Shown here one piece after another: positions 3,562-42,136 of a stretch of 44,068 nucleotides of DNA; position 1 is the first letter of the stretch, and every line of letters starts with the position of its first letter. Below the pieces are notes generated by a model. It ran no database searches and had not been told where the DNA came from. It was given only the letters and a program-made list of their open reading frames with translations. The translations under genes were made by a program, and so were the position numbers. The stretch is from Chitinophagales bacterium (lineage in GTDB: Bacteria; Bacteroidota; Bacteroidia; Chitinophagales; UBA2359): positions 1 through 44,068 of the forward strand of contig JAEUUX010000201.1 of assembly GCA_016787295.1 (NCBI GenBank), given 5' to 3'.

Positions 3562-4014
3562 TGACCTACCAAATTAGTAGGTCGACCTACAAAAAAAGTA
3601 GGTAGTACCTACCAAAATAGTAGGTCGACCTACAAAAAAAGTAGGTAGTACCTACCAAATTAGTAGGTCGACCTAGCAAATTAGTAGGTCGACCTACAAA
3701 AAAAGTAGGTAGTACCTACCAAATTAGTAGGTTGACCTACAAAAAAAGTAGGTACTACCTAGCAAATTAGTAGGTCGACCTACAAAAAAAGTAGGTAGTA
3801 CCTACCAAAATAGTAGGTCGACCTACAAAAAAAGTAGGTAGTACCTACCAAAATAGTAGGTCGACCTACAAAAAAAGTAGGTAGTACCTACCAAATTAGT
3901 AGGTCGACCTACAAAAAAAGTAGGTAGTACCTACCAAATTAGTAGGTTGACCTACCAAATTAGTAGGTCGACCTACAAAAAAAGTAGGTAGTACCTACCA
4001 AATTAGTAGGTCAA
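3562..4014. repeat. Satellite array of alternating nested palindromes (43-bp unit)
   Basis: The repeat unit alternates two perfect palindromes: GTAGGTCGACCTAC (14 bp) and GTAGGTAGTACCTAC (15 nt with a central G). They are separated by AAAAAAA on one side and CAAATTA or CAAAATA on the other. Twelve copies of the first palindrome or its variants start at 3577, 3620, 3663, 3684, 3727, 3770, 3813, 3856, 3899, 3942, 3963 and 4006. The steps are 43 bp except for two of 21 bp, where the second half-unit is missing. Variants such as GTTGAC at 3727 and 3942 and a degenerate last copy show ageing. Sequence between the palindromes is itself repeated, so this is not a CRISPR array. Confidence 0.95.
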
Positions 4015-4162
4015 CATACTATTAAATCTGCTATTCCTATATAGCACAGAAATTAAACTTTATATCTTATTTGCATTATCATTTGGGCAATAGTTTGATA
4101 GCGACATTAAAAAGTGGTTTTAGCTTGCGTTATTGTAAAAAAATGACAAATGCGAAATGATA

Positions 4163-4220
4163 TTTTGATAATAACACGCTGATAACAAGCTTATCAAGGT
4201 GTTATTTGTTATTATCAAAA
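4163..4220. repeat. Two-tier inverted repeat
   Basis: TTTTGATAATAACA (4163-4176) is perfectly complementary to TGTTATTATCAAAA (4207-4220). Inside it, GATAA (4181-4185) pairs with TTATC (4191-4195). It lies within the MITE-like segment. Confidence 0.75.
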
Positions 4221-4263
4221 CAAACCCGATTAGTTGTCAAGCTTACAAGCTCAAAATAATAAA

Positions 4264-4426
4264 AACCCCGAAGGGGTGACACGTTTATAGCTTCAAAATA
4301 ATAGAATAATTAACATAAACCCCGATGGGGGTGACATTATTCGACAAAACATGACATTATTTCACCCCGACGGGGTTTATTTCTATACATCATTCATTTT
4401 TCTATAATCATTTCACCCCGTCGGGG
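4264..4426. repeat. Four ACCCC-GNN-GGGGT palindromes, two per orientation (dispersed family, locus 1)
   Basis: ACCCCGAAGGGGT lies at 4264-4276, ACCCCGATGGGGGT at 4318-4331, ACCCCGACGGGGT at 4363-4375 and ACCCCGTCGGGGT at 4414-4426. The first two read ...GGGGTGACA on the plus strand. The last two are preceded by TTTC and followed by TTTAT, so they are the same motif inverted. Matching pairs occur at 42167-42235 and 43931-43999. Confidence 0.85.
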
Positions 4427-4519
4427 TTTATTTGCCTTAGCATTTTATCGTTATCCTTTTTGCAATACCACTTTTTAATGTCGTTATCTAAGTCCTTGAA
4501 CAAGTTAGAGAACGTAAAC

Positions 4520-4565
4520 GCAACAGCCCCTTCATCTATGGTATCATAGATGAAGGGGCTGTTGC
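4520..4565. repeat. Perfect 21-bp stem hairpin
   Basis: Bases 4520-4540 (GCAACAGCCCCTTCATCTAT then G) are perfectly complementary to 4545-4565, with a four-base GTAT loop. No T-run follows on either strand. It sits between the MITE-like element and the dispersed repeat, downstream of the HMG-CoA reductase gene, and may act as a transcript 3' structure. Confidence 0.8.
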
Positions 4566-4590
4566 AGTATATGTTTGGTGGGCATTGTTT

Positions 4591-6852: not shown

Positions 6853-7085
6853 ACAAAAGAAATAGGTATTTTACAAAATATCATTCAATAGAAAAAAAGC
6901 CAAATTTCGCTTCTTTGACATCTATAGCCATTCCAATAAACCCAATAGCTCAAAGATAGATACACAAAACATTGGTTGTTCGAAAGTCAAAAAAGAGACT
7001 TGAGAATATGAACCATTGACACAGTGTCCCCCAAACATGACATACCCACAATTCTTTGGAGAGGGAATTGTGGGTAAATTTTTTA
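6853..7085 (+). ncRNA. Candidate structured leader or small RNA upstream of murF-alr
   Basis: This is about 230 nt without a coding frame, bounded by the promoter at 6819-6847 and the terminator at 7043-7084. An internal imperfect stem joins TGGTT and AAGTC (near 6973-6992) with GACTT and AACCA (near 7003-7019). It could be an independent small RNA or an attenuator in the 5' UTR of murF-alr. I do not recognise a known RNA family. Confidence 0.5.
7043..7084 (+). terminator. Strong terminator hairpin just before the murF-alr start
   Basis: TACCCACAATTC (7043-7054) pairs perfectly with GAATTGTGGGTA (7065-7076) around a 10-nt loop, followed by AATTTTTT. The T-run ends only 20 bp before the ATG at 7104. 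No other murF-alr promoter is visible after it. Confidence 0.85.
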
Positions 7086-7103: not shown

Positions 7104-9608
7104 ATGACCTATACCATCGAAAACATTGGTACGCTTTTGCAAAACGTCAATAATTGTGTGCAACAACAATTGGCTTTGCCACAACAAACTGTCCAACATC
7201 TTTTATTTGATAGCCGAAAAATTATCTTTCCACAAACAGCCCTGTTTTTTGCTCTTGTCGGACATACCCACGACGGGCATCATTTCGTTATGGAAGCCTA
7301 TCAAACTGGTGTTCGCAATTTTGTGTTGAGCCAAACCTCCGCAACATATTTCGCCTTGCCCGACATTAATATTGTTGTTGTCAAAAACACTTTGCTCGCC
7401 CTTCAGCAAATTGCTGCGCACCATCGCCAACAATTTGATATACCTGTTATTGGGATTACGGGCAGCAATGGCAAAACGGTGGTCAAAGAATGGTTGTTTC
7501 AGACTTTGCGAAAAAATTATTACCTTGTCCGAAGTCCGCAAAGTTATAATTCCCAAATTGGTGTGCCTTTGTCTGTTTGGCAGATGCACCACGAACACCA
7601 ATTAGCTATTTTTGAGGCAGGAATTTCACAACCGCAAGAAATGGCGCGCCTATCTGCCATTATTCGCCCGACCATCGGCATTTTTACCAACATCGGCGAA
7701 GCTCACAGCGAAGGCTTTGTGGATAGACGACAAAAAGTGTGGGAAAAACTGCAATTATTTACCCATTGTCAGTGGCTTATCTATCGCTTAGATTATGGAA
7801 TTATCAACGAATTGTTGCCACAAATCAATCCCAAATGCCAAACTTTGACATGGACATTGCAAGCCGAATTGACAGAAAATTCGCCCGATACACATTTGTT
7901 TGTAGCACAAAAACATACCAATTATACCCGAATTTATAGCCAACACCCACAAACACAAGGCATTGCTTTTGACCTTCCTTTCACCGACGAAGCTGCTATT
8001 GAGAATGCTATCCATTGTTGTTTGGTGATGCACCTTTTGGGCGAAAAACCACAACAAATCAACCACGAACTCAAACATTTACAGCCCATCGCCATGCGTC
8101 TTGAGCAAAAAGCAGCGATTAACCAATGTTTGCTCATCAATGATGCCTACAATGCTGACCTTAATTCGCTGCATATTGCTTTAGATTTTTTGAGTCAACA
8201 AAGCCAAAACACAAATCGCACGCTTATTCTATCAGACATCTTGGAAAGTCGCAAAAATGATTCATTGTTATACCAACAAGTAGCCGAACAGATTCATCAA
8301 CACCACATCACGCGTTTTATTGGTATTGGTGAAAGAATTTTTGCTCATCAACATCTTTTTGCGGACATAAACGCCCAATTTTTTCATACTACCGCCGATT
8401 TTATGGCTGCCAATCTGCATTTTTCGCAAGAAAACATATTGCTCAAAGGCGCGCGTTATTTTGCTTTTGAACAAATAGCGGCTTTATTGGAGCAAAAAAT
8501 CCACACCACGACCCTCGAAATCAACCTCGATGCCATTGCACACAACTTTAAGGTATATCGCCAACACCTGCCGCCCGACACCCAAATTATGGTCATGGTC
8601 AAGGCGTTTGCGTATGGTAGTGGTGCTATAGAAATTGCCAAAATTTTGCAGTTCAACAAAGCCGATTATTTGGCAGTTGCCTATCCGGACGAAGGCATAA
8701 CCCTCCGAAAAGCAGGTATTACGTTGCCCATTATGGTCATGAATCCTGCTCCCACAAGTTTTGCAAGCCTCCAAAAATATCGGCTCGAACCCGAAATTTA
8801 TAGCCTTTCGCATCTGCGAGCGTGGAACAGTTGGGCAAAACAAAACGCCAAACGTTCCCTCCTGCCTATCCACCTAAAATTGGATACAGGTATGCACCGT
8901 TTGGGTATGGAAGCACAAGACCTACCTGAATTATTGGCTTTTTTGCACGAACAAAAACACAGCAAAGTCATCAGTATTTTCACACATTTGGCAGCTACCG
9001 ATGCTCCCGAACATGACCAATTTACGCAACAACAACTCCACCGTTTTGAGCGTATGTATAGCCAAATCACCGAAATTTTGCCCTATCCTGTGGCGCGACA
9101 TGCCTTCAACACAGCAGGTATTTTGCGCTTTGGGCAAAGCTATCCCTACGAATGGGTGCGCTTGGGTTTGGGCTGTTATGGCATTGATGTCACCAACACC
9201 CTACAGCACGAACTCATGACCGTTGGGACATTGAAAACCTATATTGCACAAATCAAAACCGTTTCGCCCGACGAAACAATAGGCTATAACCGAAAAGGAC
9301 AAATCGACAGCGTGAGCCGTATTGCAACGGTTAATATCGGTTATGGCGACGGTTTGAGCCGACAATTGAGCAATGGAATTGGCAAAATGTATGTACATGA
9401 ACAGTTAGCACCCATTATTGGCAATGTGTGTATGGACATGACCATGCTTAATATTAGCCATATTCCTGATGCAAAAGAAGGCGATGAAGTCATTGTTTTT
9501 GGCGAACAATTGCCTGTGCAGCAGTTGGCAAAATGGCAAAATACTATTCCATATGAGATTCTAACCAATATATCGGGACGCGTGCGTAGGGTGTATTTTA
9601 GAGAATAA
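7104..9608 (+). CDS. Bifunctional UDP-MurNAc-tripeptide:D-Ala-D-Ala ligase / alanine racemase
   Basis: This 834-residue fusion makes D-alanine and adds D-Ala-D-Ala to the peptidoglycan precursor, so one polypeptide supplies two cytoplasmic steps of wall synthesis. The MurF half spans about 1-465. It has the P-loop GITGSNGKT (117-125), a central domain with EAGISQPQEM and FTNIGEAH, and NDAYNA (346-351) at the start of the C-terminal ligase domain. The racemase half begins near 470 (TTLEINLDAIAHNF). It carries the PLP lysine Lys500 in VMVKAFAYGSG, GYNRKG with catalytic Tyr728, YGDGLSR and IGNVCMDM. Both halves look intact. The fusion order is the one known from Bacteroidota. The gene has its own promoter and a terminator-like hairpin in its leader. 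Confidence 0.97.
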   Translation: MTYTIENIGTLLQNVNNCVQQQLALPQQTVQHLLFDSRKIIFPQTALFFALVGHTHDGHHFVMEAYQTGVRNFVLSQTSATYFALPDINIVVVKNTLLALQQIAAHHRQQFDIPVIGITGSNGKTVVKEWLFQTLRKNYYLVRSPQSYNSQIGVPLSVWQMHHEHQLAIFEAGISQPQEMARLSAIIRPTIGIFTNIGEAHSEGFVDRRQKVWEKLQLFTHCQWLIYRLDYGIINELLPQINPKCQTLTWTLQAELTENSPDTHLFVAQKHTNYTRIYSQHPQTQGIAFDLPFTDEAAIENAIHCCLVMHLLGEKPQQINHELKHLQPIAMRLEQKAAINQCLLINDAYNADLNSLHIALDFLSQQSQNTNRTLILSDILESRKNDSLLYQQVAEQIHQHHITRFIGIGERIFAHQHLFADINAQFFHTTADFMAANLHFSQENILLKGARYFAFEQIAALLEQKIHTTTLEINLDAIAHNFKVYRQHLPPDTQIMVMVKAFAYGSGAIEIAKILQFNKADYLAVAYPDEGITLRKAGITLPIMVMNPAPTSFASLQKYRLEPEIYSLSHLRAWNSWAKQNAKRSLLPIHLKLDTGMHRLGMEAQDLPELLAFLHEQKHSKVISIFTHLAATDAPEHDQFTQQQLHRFERMYSQITEILPYPVARHAFNTAGILRFGQSYPYEWVRLGLGCYGIDVTNTLQHELMTVGTLKTYIAQIKTVSPDETIGYNRKGQIDSVSRIATVNIGYGDGLSRQLSNGIGKMYVHEQLAPIIGNVCMDMTMLNISHIPDAKEGDEVIVFGEQLPVQQLAKWQNTIPYEILTNISGRVRRVYFRE

Positions 9609-22402: not shown

Positions 22403-22915
22403 TTAAGTTGATAAAGATGTTGGCAAATAAGTTCCATGTTTATCGACAAGCAAAGTCACGATTTGCTCCAAATAATGGGCATCAGTATTATCAAAGGTGT
22501 TCAGTTCGGTGCTATCTATGTCCAACACCCAAAGGCATTGCCTGTCTGCAACAGCAGGCACAACTATTTCGGATTTCGATAAACTACTACAAGCGATATG
22601 TCCTTCAAACTGTTCTACGTCGGGTACGACGAAGGTGGTCAAATGCTGGGCGGCGGCACCACAAACGCCTTTACCCCAAGCAATGCGGGTGCAAGCTACC
22701 GTGCCTTGAAACGGTCCCAAGACCAACTCCTGCCCACGCGCTACATAGAAACCTACCCAAAAGAAATCGAACACTTGTCGCAAGGCTGCGGCAGTATTGG
22801 CAAAATTGGCTATCCAATCTGTTTCGTGTTCGATAAGGGCGGCAAGTTGCGGCAATAGAGATTCGTATTGTTCGGCTTTGGTCATAGCCATTGGGTTGCC
22901 ATGGATTTCGTGCAT
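22403..22915 (-). CDS. Free methionine-(R)-sulfoxide reductase (GAF-domain fRMsr)
   Basis: The enzyme reduces free Met-R-sulfoxide, an oxidative-damage product, in the cytoplasm. The 170-residue protein from the ATG at 22913-22915 is one GAF domain closely resembling E. coli YebR. It has WVGFYV, LVLGPFQGTVAC, GKGVCG, GHIACSS, SEIVVP and LDIDS. All three catalytic or resolving cysteines are present (Cys75, Cys85, Cys109). An upstream in-frame TTG exists at 22933 but is less likely. It is the first gene of a two-gene operon with the cobalamin adenosyltransferase. Confidence 0.93.
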   Translation of the reverse strand: MHEIHGNPMAMTKAEQYESLLPQLAALIEHETDWIANFANTAAALRQVFDFFWVGFYVARGQELVLGPFQGTVACTRIAWGKGVCGAAAQHLTTFVVPDVEQFEGHIACSSLSKSEIVVPAVADRQCLWVLDIDSTELNTFDNTDAHYLEQIVTLLVDKHGTYLPTSLST

Positions 22916-22982
22916 TTTTATAACTTTGGTCAATAATTTTTTAGAAAGATAGAGTTCTTATCCAAAGAGGTTAAGCATTATG

Positions 22983-23014
22983 CAAAGGTAAACATTATTA
23001 GACAGATTGCCAAA
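22983..23014 (-). promoter_or_regulatory. Promoter of the fRMsr/adenosyltransferase operon
   Basis: On the minus strand TTTG (23014-23011) and TACCTTTG (22990-22983) are 20 bp apart. The expected start is near 22977, about 60 nt before the ATG at 22915. Confidence 0.75.
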
Positions 23015-23290
23015 ACAAAGATTTAGAAAAGCTAAAAAAGTAAAAATTATTTTTTTTCTTTGATTTTTATGCAACTTGTAGTGAGCAATATTCGTATAGG
23101 GCAACGCAAGAAAAACGGTGGCTATAAAAATCGCCGTAAGTGCTTGGTTATCAAGGTTTTATACTATTAGCATAAACCATATATGAGTTATACAAAAAGT
23201 TGATGTACTTTTAGTTTGGGTATAATTGTGGAATTAACTGCTATATTGTCGGTCCATAATCATCAAGTAGAAAAAAAAAATGACAAAAAG

Positions 23291-23322
23291 TTTGGTAAAG
23301 CGAAGTATTTGTCATAATTTTG
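23291..23322 (+). promoter_or_regulatory. Promoter for an intergenic small RNA
   Basis: TTTG at 23291-23294 and TAATTTTG at 23315-23322 are 20 bp apart, the same layout as the operon promoter nearby on the other strand. Expected transcript start is near 23329. Confidence 0.65.
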
Positions 23323-23328
23323 TCATAA

Positions 23329-23591
23329 AATAACAGTAATCTTTTGATAACTTAGATAACTTTTTGGTAGTGATACCATTTTTTAATTGCCCACAGAACA
23401 GAAGTAGGGGCGTATTAACTTGCTGTTAAACATAGGCTCCTATTTTGTCTTACCCTTTTCCCTACTTTCTGTTTCTGTCGCTTATCTTTTGAGAAGAAAA
23501 TTTATTCAAAAAATATTGCATTGCGGAGTGAATATTGCTTTTTAACTCTAACCACCGGTGAGCAGCGGAAACTCGTCGGTGGTATTTTTTT
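23329..23591 (+). ncRNA. Candidate structured small RNA (~260 nt), family unknown
   Basis: A promoter and a strong terminator bound a non-coding segment with four stem-loops in order. The first is TGGTA/TACCA at 23365-23378. The second is a long stem of ACAGAACAGAAGTAGGG (23393-23409) against CCCTACTTTCTGTTTCTGT (23460-23478), enclosing two small hairpins (TTAAC/GTTAA and ATAGG/CCTAT). The third is a stem of 23512-23522 with 23527-23536 (AATATT...CATT / AGTG AATATT, GCGG loop). The fourth is the terminator. It lacks the tmRNA, RNase P and SRP signatures I know, and it is not a simple 6S rod. Orphan in an 830-bp gene-free interval. Confidence 0.6.
23551..23591 (+). terminator. Strong terminator of the intergenic RNA
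   Basis: ACCACCG (23551-23557) pairs with CGGTGGT (23577-23583). Inside, GAG pairs with CTC across a symmetric GT/GT internal loop. A seven-T run follows at 23585-23591. Confidence 0.85.
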
Positions 23592-23743
23592 GCCTGATTA
23601 GAAAACCCACACAACAAGCATTTGGCATGAAAAACAACGGAATATAGCAAAGTTTAGGATAAATTGGGCATAATGAGTATTTTTAGTCCAAAAAGCCTTA
23701 CCTTTACCACCGTTTTTTTGTTGGTCAAAAATTTTCTCCCAAT

Positions 23744-24031
23744 ATGTTTTTTCTTCTTTTATTACCGTATGCGTTAGTACCTTTACTAACTGCTTTTTTG
23801 TTGCGCCAAAAAAAATTATCTAACATTTTGTATACCTACCTCTTGTCGTTTGCTTTTATATTGGTATATACTTTGTTGGCGCAAAAAATATGTTATAGTT
23901 ATTATGATGAACAATGGCTCACACCACAACGCAAACAAGTGTTTGAATTTTTGAACAACTTTGTTGCTCCTTGTATGATGATGGGGTTTCAGGCAGGAGC
24001 CAACTATCTGATGGTTCGCCAATACTATTAG
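23744..24031 (+). CDS. Small membrane protein, hypothetical
   Basis: The 95-residue protein has a hydrophobic helix at 2-20 (FFLLLLPYALVPLLTAFLL), RQKK, and a second at about 27-47 (LYTYLLSFAFILVYTLLA). A third, weaker one lies near 73-88 (VAPCMMMGFQAGANYLMV). Positive RQKK between helices fits an inside loop. No family is recognised. A TACCTTTA box at 23699-23706 lies 38 bp upstream. Its stop codon overlaps the stop of the convergent AEC transporter gene by two bases, so no terminator separates them. Confidence 0.65.
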   Translation: MFFLLLLPYALVPLLTAFLLRQKKLSNILYTYLLSFAFILVYTLLAQKICYSYYDEQWLTPQRKQVFEFLNNFVAPCMMMGFQAGANYLMVRQYY

Positions 24032-25200: not shown

Positions 25201-26730
25201 TTATACCAGCAGACCTATACGTTCTTTTTGTTCAATTTTTACGGCTACAAATGTTTTTTGTTCTGCTTTGGCTTTTGCCCATGACAGCAAATCGAAAAAA
25301 TCAAAAATAGGCGATGGTGTTTTTTGAGCATCTAAATTCTTGAGTTCTTCATATAATTCTCCATACAATATCAACAACTCTTTGTTAGAGGTGGTTTTGA
25401 TGGCTTTATTAAAAAACGCAAACATTTTTGCTTCTGGTTCGCCCAGTGAGTTTTGATTATTTAGATAGCGGCGAGCTGTTCTAATTTTAGACTCTAATAA
25501 TTGATAATGCCTCAGTTCGAAATGAAGCACTAAGTCGAACATTAAAACAACATTGTACATATCACCACGCAAATTACTACTTTCTTCTTGCAAAATTTCA
25601 TTGGCATAATCCAAAGCTATTTTGTATTCTCCTTTGATAAGCAGTAAATAACACGACTGTAATAACAAAACTGTGCGTTGCATATCGCTTACACGCACTT
25701 CTTTGTTGATAAACAACTTGCCCGCTTCTTTGGCTAAAGTGGCAGCTTTTTCAAAATCACAGTATACCAAGTATTTTTGCAACAAAACATTGTATTTGAT
25801 AAATCGCCAACGCGACTCTTCGTGTTTGGTTTGCAATTCAAATTTTTCAAAATACTCATAGTTTCGGTCAAAATCTTGGAATTTATAAGTTGCTATACAA
25901 GCCAATAATAGACTATGCAAACGACTCAATAAAAACAAAGGGGTATAACCCAAAATTTTGGGGTTGGCAAATATCAAATCTACTTGCAACTGTGAATATA
26001 AATGATATTCTTCGTCATTACCAGTCATCTGATAATAGCGATATTGAATACTATACAAATAATTCAAAGACGTAATTGTGGTAGCGCGTTGTGGATCTTG
26101 CAATAATGGATTTTGGTGAAGTTTTTCTATCTCCTGAATAATTTCAGCTTGATTGAGCGTGCCAAATTGCAAAACAAAACATGTAACCATGTAATACAAC
26201 TGTTTATAGTCATGAATTTCTTGCAATTTACGCCACACTTCTTTGTTTTCATCTACTAATTTTCTGATTTTTCGCACTTGTTCTTGTACATTATTTAGCA
26301 GATGTATCATTTTTATTTCTAACTCAAGGGCGCGTGAGTACAAATAGAAATCTTCTAAATCATTAGCGCGTTTTTTCAATTTATCTACAATGCGTTTAGC
26401 TTGTTCAATAAGGTGTTTATCATACAACACTTCGGCTTGCCTCAATTGTTTATACAAATCGTGTTGTGGACTTTTCTCGTCATGAAACGAAATCAGTTCG
26501 TCAAGAATAAAATTATATAAATAATTCTTGGTAACTGCAAATTTGTTTTTGTCCAACTTTAGGAAGTTGACTAACGCATTTTCGTCATACGTTTGCTGTT
26601 CATTGATAGCATCGTATAATTTTAGATAATTGTTTTCGTCACCTCTAACATGTTGCGAAGCATGGATACGCAAATAGCGCTTTTCTGTTTTAGACAATGA
26701 CTGGATAAGTTGAAAGAGTTGATCTACCAT
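25201..26730 (-). CDS. Alpha-helical (TPR-like) protein of unknown function
   Basis: The 509-residue cytoplasmic protein has no signal peptide. It is almost entirely alpha-helical, with paired amphipathic helices of about 35 residues suggesting a TPR-like superhelix (for example KYLVYCDFEKAATLAKEAGKL and YLLLIKGEYKIALDYANEIL, quoted in parts). The N-terminal LFQLIQSLSKTEKRYLRI looks like a conserved opening seen in Bacteroidota hypothetical proteins of this size, but I do not know a function. Charged coiled stretches occur near 110-170. It has its own -7 box and terminator and no operon partner. Confidence 0.8.
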   Translation of the reverse strand: MVDQLFQLIQSLSKTEKRYLRIHASQHVRGDENNYLKLYDAINEQQTYDENALVNFLKLDKNKFAVTKNYLYNFILDELISFHDEKSPQHDLYKQLRQAEVLYDKHLIEQAKRIVDKLKKRANDLEDFYLYSRALELEIKMIHLLNNVQEQVRKIRKLVDENKEVWRKLQEIHDYKQLYYMVTCFVLQFGTLNQAEIIQEIEKLHQNPLLQDPQRATTITSLNYLYSIQYRYYQMTGNDEEYHLYSQLQVDLIFANPKILGYTPLFLLSRLHSLLLACIATYKFQDFDRNYEYFEKFELQTKHEESRWRFIKYNVLLQKYLVYCDFEKAATLAKEAGKLFINKEVRVSDMQRTVLLLQSCYLLLIKGEYKIALDYANEILQEESSNLRGDMYNVVLMFDLVLHFELRHYQLLESKIRTARRYLNNQNSLGEPEAKMFAFFNKAIKTTSNKELLILYGELYEELKNLDAQKTPSPIFDFFDLLSWAKAKAEQKTFVAVKIEQKERIGLLV

Positions 26731-40232: not shown

Positions 40233-40360
40233 CAAACCTCAAAAAAACAAGCATCACACTCATTAACCAGCAACAATCAACCAGTAATAATTCCCCCATC
40301 AACCAGTAACAATTAATAACTAACAATTAAAAACCCCAACCTCTCCCAATTCACAAAAAA

Positions 40361-40394
40361 AAGCCGCCGATAGGAACATACCTATCGGCGGCTT
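40361..40394. terminator. Bidirectional terminator between the patatin-like and SDR genes
   Basis: AAGCCGCCGATAGG (40361-40374) pairs perfectly with CCTATCGGCGGCTT (40381-40394) around AACATA. An A-run (40353-40362) precedes it, giving a T-run on the minus strand. It mainly serves the minus-strand SDR gene. Confidence 0.88.
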
Positions 40395-40441
40395 CACACA
40401 TTATACACAGCATAACCCAAAAAACAACAAAACAACAAGCC

Positions 40442-41716: not shown

Positions 41717-42136
41717 CAAGTACACACAGCCATTCGACAAGTACACACAGCCATTCGACAAGTACACACAACCATTCGACAAGTACACACAACCATTCGA
41801 CAAGTACACACAGCCATTCGACAAGTACACACAGCCATTCACCAAGTACACACAACCATTCGACAAGTACACACAACCATTCGACAAGTACACACAGCCA
41901 TTCGACAAGTACACACAGCCATTCGACAAGTACACACAGTCATTCGACAAGTACACACAACCATTCGACAAGTACACACAACCATTCGACAAGTACACAC
42001 AGGCATTCGACAAGTACACACAGGCATTCGACAAGTACACACAGGCATTCGACAAGTACACACAACCATTCGACAAGTACACACAACCATTCGACAAGTA
42101 CACACAGCCATTCACCAAGTACACACAGCCATTAAC
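41717..42136. repeat. 21-bp minisatellite, 20 copies
   Basis: Twenty head-to-tail 21-bp units start at 41717 and step by exactly 21 to 42116. Each unit is CAAGTACACACA followed by RSCATTCGA, with most variation at two bases (AGCC, AACC, AGGC or AGTC) and in CGAC against CACC. Because 21 is a multiple of 3, the minus strand stays open in more than one frame, giving artefactual Cys-Val-Tyr-Leu-Ser-Asn-Gly repeats. The last copy runs into a TTAACAA microrepeat. Confidence 0.97.

Follow-up and report, generated by a model that had tools for sequence, protein, structure and literature searches.

A candidate intergenic small RNA with its own predicted promoter and terminator in a Chitinophagales bacterium

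Positions 23291-23591 of a 44,068-nucleotide stretch of DNA from a Chitinophagales bacterium (the window, meaning the whole stretch analysed) carry on the plus strand a compact candidate unit consisting of TTTG, 20 nt, TAATTTTG, about 225 nt, a 12-bp hairpin, an A and seven T. An initial annotation had put it forward as an orphan small RNA, and the predicted promoter, the terminator, the ATG-free body and the empty Rfam searches are all consistent with a stand-alone unit that matches no known family. Since the terminator is an orphan and no ATG lies between it and the promoter, a discrete plus-strand transcript of about 265 nt (23327-23591), ATG-free and reaching from promoter to terminator, is likely from this arrangement. 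That the transcript is an ordinary, lineage-specific intergenic small RNA (sRNA), standing alone and acting by base pairing in trans, is given about an even chance. The unit possesses the predicted housekeeping-type promoter, orphan intrinsic terminator and lack of coding potential by which intergenic sRNAs, a class and not a homology family, are recognized in sequence. If transcribed, it would be one more lineage-specific sRNA gene of the Bacteroidota and leave the general picture unchanged; the open-access literature searched yielded no small-RNA study for this part of the Bacteroidota.

Promoter, terminator and coding potential

The interval is gene-free as proposed, ORFs of at least 80 aa being absent from 22934-23743, and the promoter described earlier is exact to the letter, with TTTG at 23291-23294, a 20-nt spacer and TAATTTTG at 23315-23322. 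The promoter (23291-23322, plus strand) thus has its TTTG at -33 and TAATTTTG at -7; the transcription start is predicted near 23327 because the available part of PMC9723704 places the Flavobacterium psychrophilum promoter element TAnnTTTG at -12 to -5. From this sequence match the candidate promoter is predicted to be of the Bacteroidota housekeeping form. The full promoter pattern occurs 5 times in the window against 2.37 expected, at least 5 being reached in 9 of 100 shuffles, and is by itself within the chance level. Of the other four matches, two precede same-strand ORFs by about 46 and 50 nt, and the remaining two fall inside ORFs of the opposite strand. A divergent promoter, TTTG-N20-TACCTTTG, is predicted on the minus strand at 22983-23014, with the GAF-domain ORF 22403-22933(-) beginning about 50 nt downstream of it. 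Spanning the -7 box of the candidate is the direct repeat TTTGTCA-N4-TTTGTCA (23308-23325, plus strand), and this TTTGTCATAATTTTGTCA may mark a regulator site or extend the promoter. When up to 2 mismatches are allowed, the repeat pattern has 25 matches in the own genome versus 3 for a reversed control; an ORF of at least 100 aa begins 101-231 nt downstream at 5 of the 25 loci, and several others adjoin repeat arrays. On contigs C8, C34 and C274 of the own genome, arrays of a repeat of about 40 bp like GAAGAAACACCCCTGAAGTTTTTCTTTAGACCCCTTTCTCTC adjoin copies of TTTGTCATTATTTTGTC (loci L052, L053, L055, L056, L070 and L071, some of which overlap).

The intrinsic terminator (23551-23591, plus strand) comprises arms at 23551-23562 and 23572-23583 that form a 12-bp stem, a 9-nt loop, an A and a T run at 23585-23591, and no same-strand gene precedes it. 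Its earlier description as a perfect stem with seven T holds for the 12 pairs and the seven T, although two of the pairs are G-U. Stems of at least 11 pairs with at least 7 GC pairs before a T run were found in none of 20 shuffled windows, while looser terminator-like hairpins averaged 3.8 per shuffled window; the candidate terminator is beyond chance. A standard terminator scan returned 0 sites here, as it permits loops of 3-8 nt only. Terminator-like sites in the window make up 11 rows, of which 6 lie 17-61 nt past the stop of a same-strand ORF, 1 is the mirror of one of those 6, and 2 are weak and within ORFs. The last two are the candidate, which has no plus-strand gene before it, and 7043-7076, a 15-bp hairpin followed by AATTTTTTA on the coding strand, 28 nt ahead of ORF 7104-9608(+), where an attenuator or a leftover terminator is possible.

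The body of the unit lies in an ATG-free span, 23281-23626, bounded by an ATG at 23280 and the next at 23627. Dinucleotide shuffles contain 3.1 ATG on average and none in 2.2% of cases; ATG is likewise absent from 7.4% of the 263-nt stretches on the plus strand of the window, a figure counted against the sRNA reading. A peptide gene was considered and rejected, as the coding score of the internal 41-aa ORF starting with TTG was equalled or exceeded by 225 of 1000 shuffles and that of a 62-aa minus-strand ORF was similarly shuffle-like (246 of 1000). The adjoining minus-strand operon had been called cobalamin-related, and it does include a cobalamin adenosyltransferase (PF01923, E 7.8e-63). Two neighbouring proteins carry CHU_C and Por_Secre_tail domains, and among named relatives of the GAF protein the best, 60% identical, comes from a Cytophagales metagenome-assembled genome, both in keeping with a Bacteroidota host.

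Fold and searches for relatives

Two of the structural elements proposed for the RNA recur in its predicted fold. The long-range stem of 17 bp pairs 23393-23409 with 23460-23478, with two single-base bulges on the 3' side, in both the minimum free energy (MFE) and the centroid structure, and forms a long hairpin (23393-23478, plus strand) whose apical part, 23410-23459, holds two weak hairpins. The small hairpin TGGTA-GTGA-TACCA (23365-23378, plus strand) agrees with the fold and with the letters, TGGTA at 23365-23369 pairing with TACCA at 23374-23378. The stem assigned to 23512-23536 did not hold up: its letters are AATATT/AATATT, and the MFE structure instead pairs 23489-23507 with 23526-23545 in an A/U-rich second stem (23489-23545, plus strand).

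The whole candidate has an MFE of -62.2 kcal/mol and a z-score of -2.60, with 2 of 200 shuffles equal or better; without the terminator the z-score is -2.15, and 24 of 1000 shuffles fold equally well. The long hairpin alone reaches z -3.61 with 0 of 200 shuffles matching it, a hairpin chosen after inspection, for which the best local 96-nt fold, matched by 3 of 300 shuffles, is the fairer test. Among 148 stretches of 265 nt sampled along the window with 16 shuffles each, 13 have z-scores of -2.6 or lower (the hairpin arrays at 3601-4466 account for 4 of them and the surroundings of a terminator at 40360-40395 for 2) and 16 have -2.15 or lower. Since so many stretches do as well, and since a GC-corrected energy scan of 110 nt places the candidate about 1.2 standard deviations below the fit, folding adds little to the case. 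The statement that the structure is more ordered than AT-rich spacer should show is therefore borne out in comparison with shuffles, which the candidate beats moderately, but not in comparison with the window, where 16 of 148 stretches reach -2.15; structure beyond spacer expectation is weakly suggested by these models. The available text of PMC8250186 carries the same general caution about folds of single sequences.

Elsewhere in the window, the strongest sampled fold (z about -17) belongs to an intergenic tandem array of palindromes of about 21 bp like GACCTACnAAAnnAGTAGGTC at 3563-4019. Beside it, at 4260-4570, several hairpins of the type CCCCGaCGGGG and one long palindrome at about 4526-4565 can be seen by eye, and 41717-42133 contains about 20 copies of the 21-bp repeat CAAGTACACACAGCCATTCGA with 95% matches.

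The RNA had been called unassigned, and no known family matched it in any search run. The Rfam check proposed for it returned no match in the window that reaches the gathering score; snR47, mir-1270, AfaR and mir-1262, which appeared at E 3.8-9.7 for 22920-23760, were rejected as far below their cut-offs. The Rfam models of tmRNA, RNase P RNA, SRP RNA and the cobalamin riboswitch were likewise unmatched, in line with the earlier remark that their hallmarks are lacking, and ARAGORN found no tmRNA in the window. The proposed collection of homologous intergenic regions came to nothing, as no search yielded a homologue. In a DNA search of 60 genomes, in which up to 12 first-look candidates were scored per genome and no second genome of the same genus was included, matches at E<=0.01 occurred in 14, the own genome counted, and outside it covered at most 43 of 310 bases. 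Model R1, which represents the candidate hairpin alone and scores 138.4 bits against itself, matched 8 of 40 genomes at E<=5, again with the own genome counted; the best match elsewhere has 20.5 bits (E 0.24), and the other R1 matches are taken as chance. Conservation of the candidate is not disproved by these null searches. A second copy in the own genome was rejected, the only similarity being 33 bp of promoter-like sequence on contig C163, as was a mobile element, for which there was a single 44-base, 84% match on an E. coli plasmid (E 6e-3) and none in phages; an exact 27-base piece had no match in viral contigs.

Additionally, the neighbourhood of the GAF protein was compared between genomes. 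The protein is found in 18 of 20 genomes of the family, at 19 loci with flanks of up to 1.5 kb, among which the adenosyltransferase, a 95-aa ORF and a transporter lie beside the GAF gene in the own genome only; ORF 25201-26730, also used as a synteny query, is beyond the 1.5-kb flank and hence uninformative. A scan of GTDB contigs for the GAF protein yielded 20 loci, of which the closest is 60% identical, with no candidate-like match better than E 0.46 in their flanks and no match to the adenosyltransferase, the 95-aa ORF, the transporter or ORF 25201-26730. Past the GAF-protein gene of some relatives lie two or three successive elements, each a box of about 28 nt (GTAARTnTTTTTCATAATWAGTTTTGGTT) followed by a hairpin whose arms vary between elements and partly between genomes. 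Three elements are present in L043 (2030-2960, genome G012) and L046 (1838-2490, G019), and two in L042 (2061-2377, G002) and L041 (G017), both of which end at or near the second. The box resembles the candidate promoter, and the elements, which have no Rfam match at E<=1 in L043 and L046 and none in viral contigs, may be promoter-hairpin units or repeats.

Alternative readings and the 6S-like RNA of related genomes

The main rival explanation, although unlikely, is that the unit is the leader of the ORF of 95 aa at 23744-24031 (plus strand), hydrophobic by eye and a possible regulated gene, with the terminator serving as an attenuator that would switch transcription of the ORF on or off. On one strand, the promoter is indeed followed by leader, terminator and ORF in turn, a likeness to transcription attenuators and terminator riboswitches. 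The ORF is likely to be coding, judging from its codon use: its score is 0.145 per codon, reached by 0 of 1000 shuffles, and the five other frames are negative, on a scale that is imperfect because 2 of 17 long training ORFs are negative as well. It has no Pfam family and no clear homologue in 40 genomes, where the matches besides its own were 2 weak ones with internal stops. Nor does the ORF have a convincing promoter of its own, although a TACCTTTA box at 23699-23706 (plus strand) could serve it as a -7 box, a pattern seen 3 times against 0.9 expected and so at chance level. Pairing between 23473-23486 and 23557-23570 would be an alternative to both the terminator and the long stem, but it was rejected as an antiterminator, since about 19% of shuffles pair equally well (191 of 1000 when the body was shuffled and 193 of 1000 when the arm was). 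The candidate further differs from known attenuators in lacking a significant antiterminator, a known aptamer and any match to a known riboswitch or leader family, and in the gap of about 152-153 nt between terminator and ORF. The more specific proposal of an undescribed cis-regulatory attenuator, in which the long stem would sense a ligand or protein and control the membrane-protein-like ORF, is very improbable.

Somewhat less unlikely than the leader, though still doubtful, is the reading that a chance promoter happens to precede a terminator in AT-rich spacer and that the region is at most weakly transcribed, with no selected function. It fits the promoter pattern being within chance when taken by itself, a fold unremarkable for the window and the lack of detected conservation in the genome searches; it has difficulty with a terminator well beyond shuffles that has no other gene to serve, and with a promoter whose box and spacing are exact. 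Since the long stem with its open loop recalls 6S RNA, that identity was tested explicitly. A strongly diverged 6S RNA of the own genome, sequestering RNA polymerase, would account for a long stem around a large AU-rich loop, and no 6S RNA was found elsewhere in the own genome, while 13 of 20 family genomes match a 6S-like model. With model R3 (filters off) the candidate reaches no more than 5.0 bits, against 53-165 bits for 19 relatives with model R2, which has no window match close to the candidate; 23327-23591 lacks the bubble-closing helix as well as the GCGGGCC and GGAUUA boxes, and no Rfam 6S family is among the matches up to E 10 for 22920-23760. A 6S RNA elsewhere may have escaped the own-genome scans, in which 74 of 418 and 150 of 1010 first-look candidates were scored. 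Like 6S RNA (RF00013, 6S-Flavo RF01685, Bacteroidales-1 RF01693), the candidate has an open, AU-rich region enclosed by a long stem; 6S RNA is built from a closing helix, a central bubble and a long apical rod, whereas the candidate has a basal 17-bp stem and a branched apical loop. The 6S identity is thus highly improbable, and the stand-alone sRNA is the preferred reading.

The 6S families themselves gave little at their own thresholds. RF00013, which matches 5 of 14 control genomes, had no match at E<=1 among 40 genomes, RF01685 matched 1 of 60 relatives and 3 of 119 genomes of the class at E<=0.001, never the own genome and never reaching its cut-off, and RF01693 matched 19 of 40 at E<=1, the own genome not among them and 0 above cut-off. 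Following up the RF01693 matches below threshold revealed a conserved RNA in the relatives (loci L119-L137, models R2 and R3, alignment A4). Model R2 was built on six loci. At E<=0.01 it has matches in 20 of 40 genomes, including the 13 of 20 in the family; the matched genomes of the 40 include the six source genomes and one weak match (G026, E 0.0096). In the alignment of 19 copies, both partners vary in 21 of 26 pairs, and 91.7% of cells are paired, compared with 76.9% for column shuffles and 35.6-55.2% for slid structures, figures biased in favour of pairing because the alignment was fitted to the structure. The RNA consists of a closing helix, a bubble and a rod, most copies carry GCGGGCC and GGAUUA, and it resembles RF01693 (Rfam label '6S-Bacteroidales RNA suggested'), against which its best score is 42.1 bits for a cut-off of 60; in G035 the sub-threshold RF01685 match and the R2 match are the same place. 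By these features it is probably a 6S-like housekeeping RNA below the Rfam cut-offs. In the own genome, 98% complete in 296 contigs, the same scans of first-look candidates found no 6S RNA, the best score being 17 bits (E 8), and such an RNA may be absent, diverged, hidden in an assembly gap or overlooked. The 6S-like RNA is possibly the more useful by-product, as standard annotation misses a probable housekeeping RNA. In the open-access literature searched, PMC2864571 was the one paper pairing 6S RNA with Bacteroidales-1, and no paper paired 6S RNA with Cytophagales.

Proposed action and comparison with known small RNAs

As an sRNA, the candidate would be transcribed by RNA polymerase with the housekeeping sigma factor from near 23327, through about 265 nt without ATG, to the orphan terminator. 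Its unpaired 5' part or apical loop may then pair in trans with the start regions of mRNAs, while the long stem and terminator would shield the RNA ends. Transcription, stability, mode of action and targets are predictions throughout, the trans base-pairing mode by analogy with the class, since GibS acts in this way in Bacteroides according to the portion of PMC7366714 available. Target pairing against the 25 gene starts of the window gave no significant result, the best z-score being -2.88 among 75 comparisons.

For Bacteroides thetaiotaomicron, the available part of PMC7366714 describes 11 intergenic candidates probed on northern blots; 9 were verified, and 8 of these have both a start site and a terminator. 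The candidate resembles GibS of that species (PMC7366714) and the Rfp RNAs of F. psychrophilum (PMC9723704), as far as the available portions of these papers describe them, in being intergenic, short and lineage-limited, with a promoter and intrinsic terminator of its own and no evident coding potential, features that for the candidate are predicted from sequence. GibS, as presented in the same portion of PMC7366714, is 145 nt long and largely unstructured with a conserved 5' seed, whereas the candidate would be about 265 nt long and contain a 17-bp stem.
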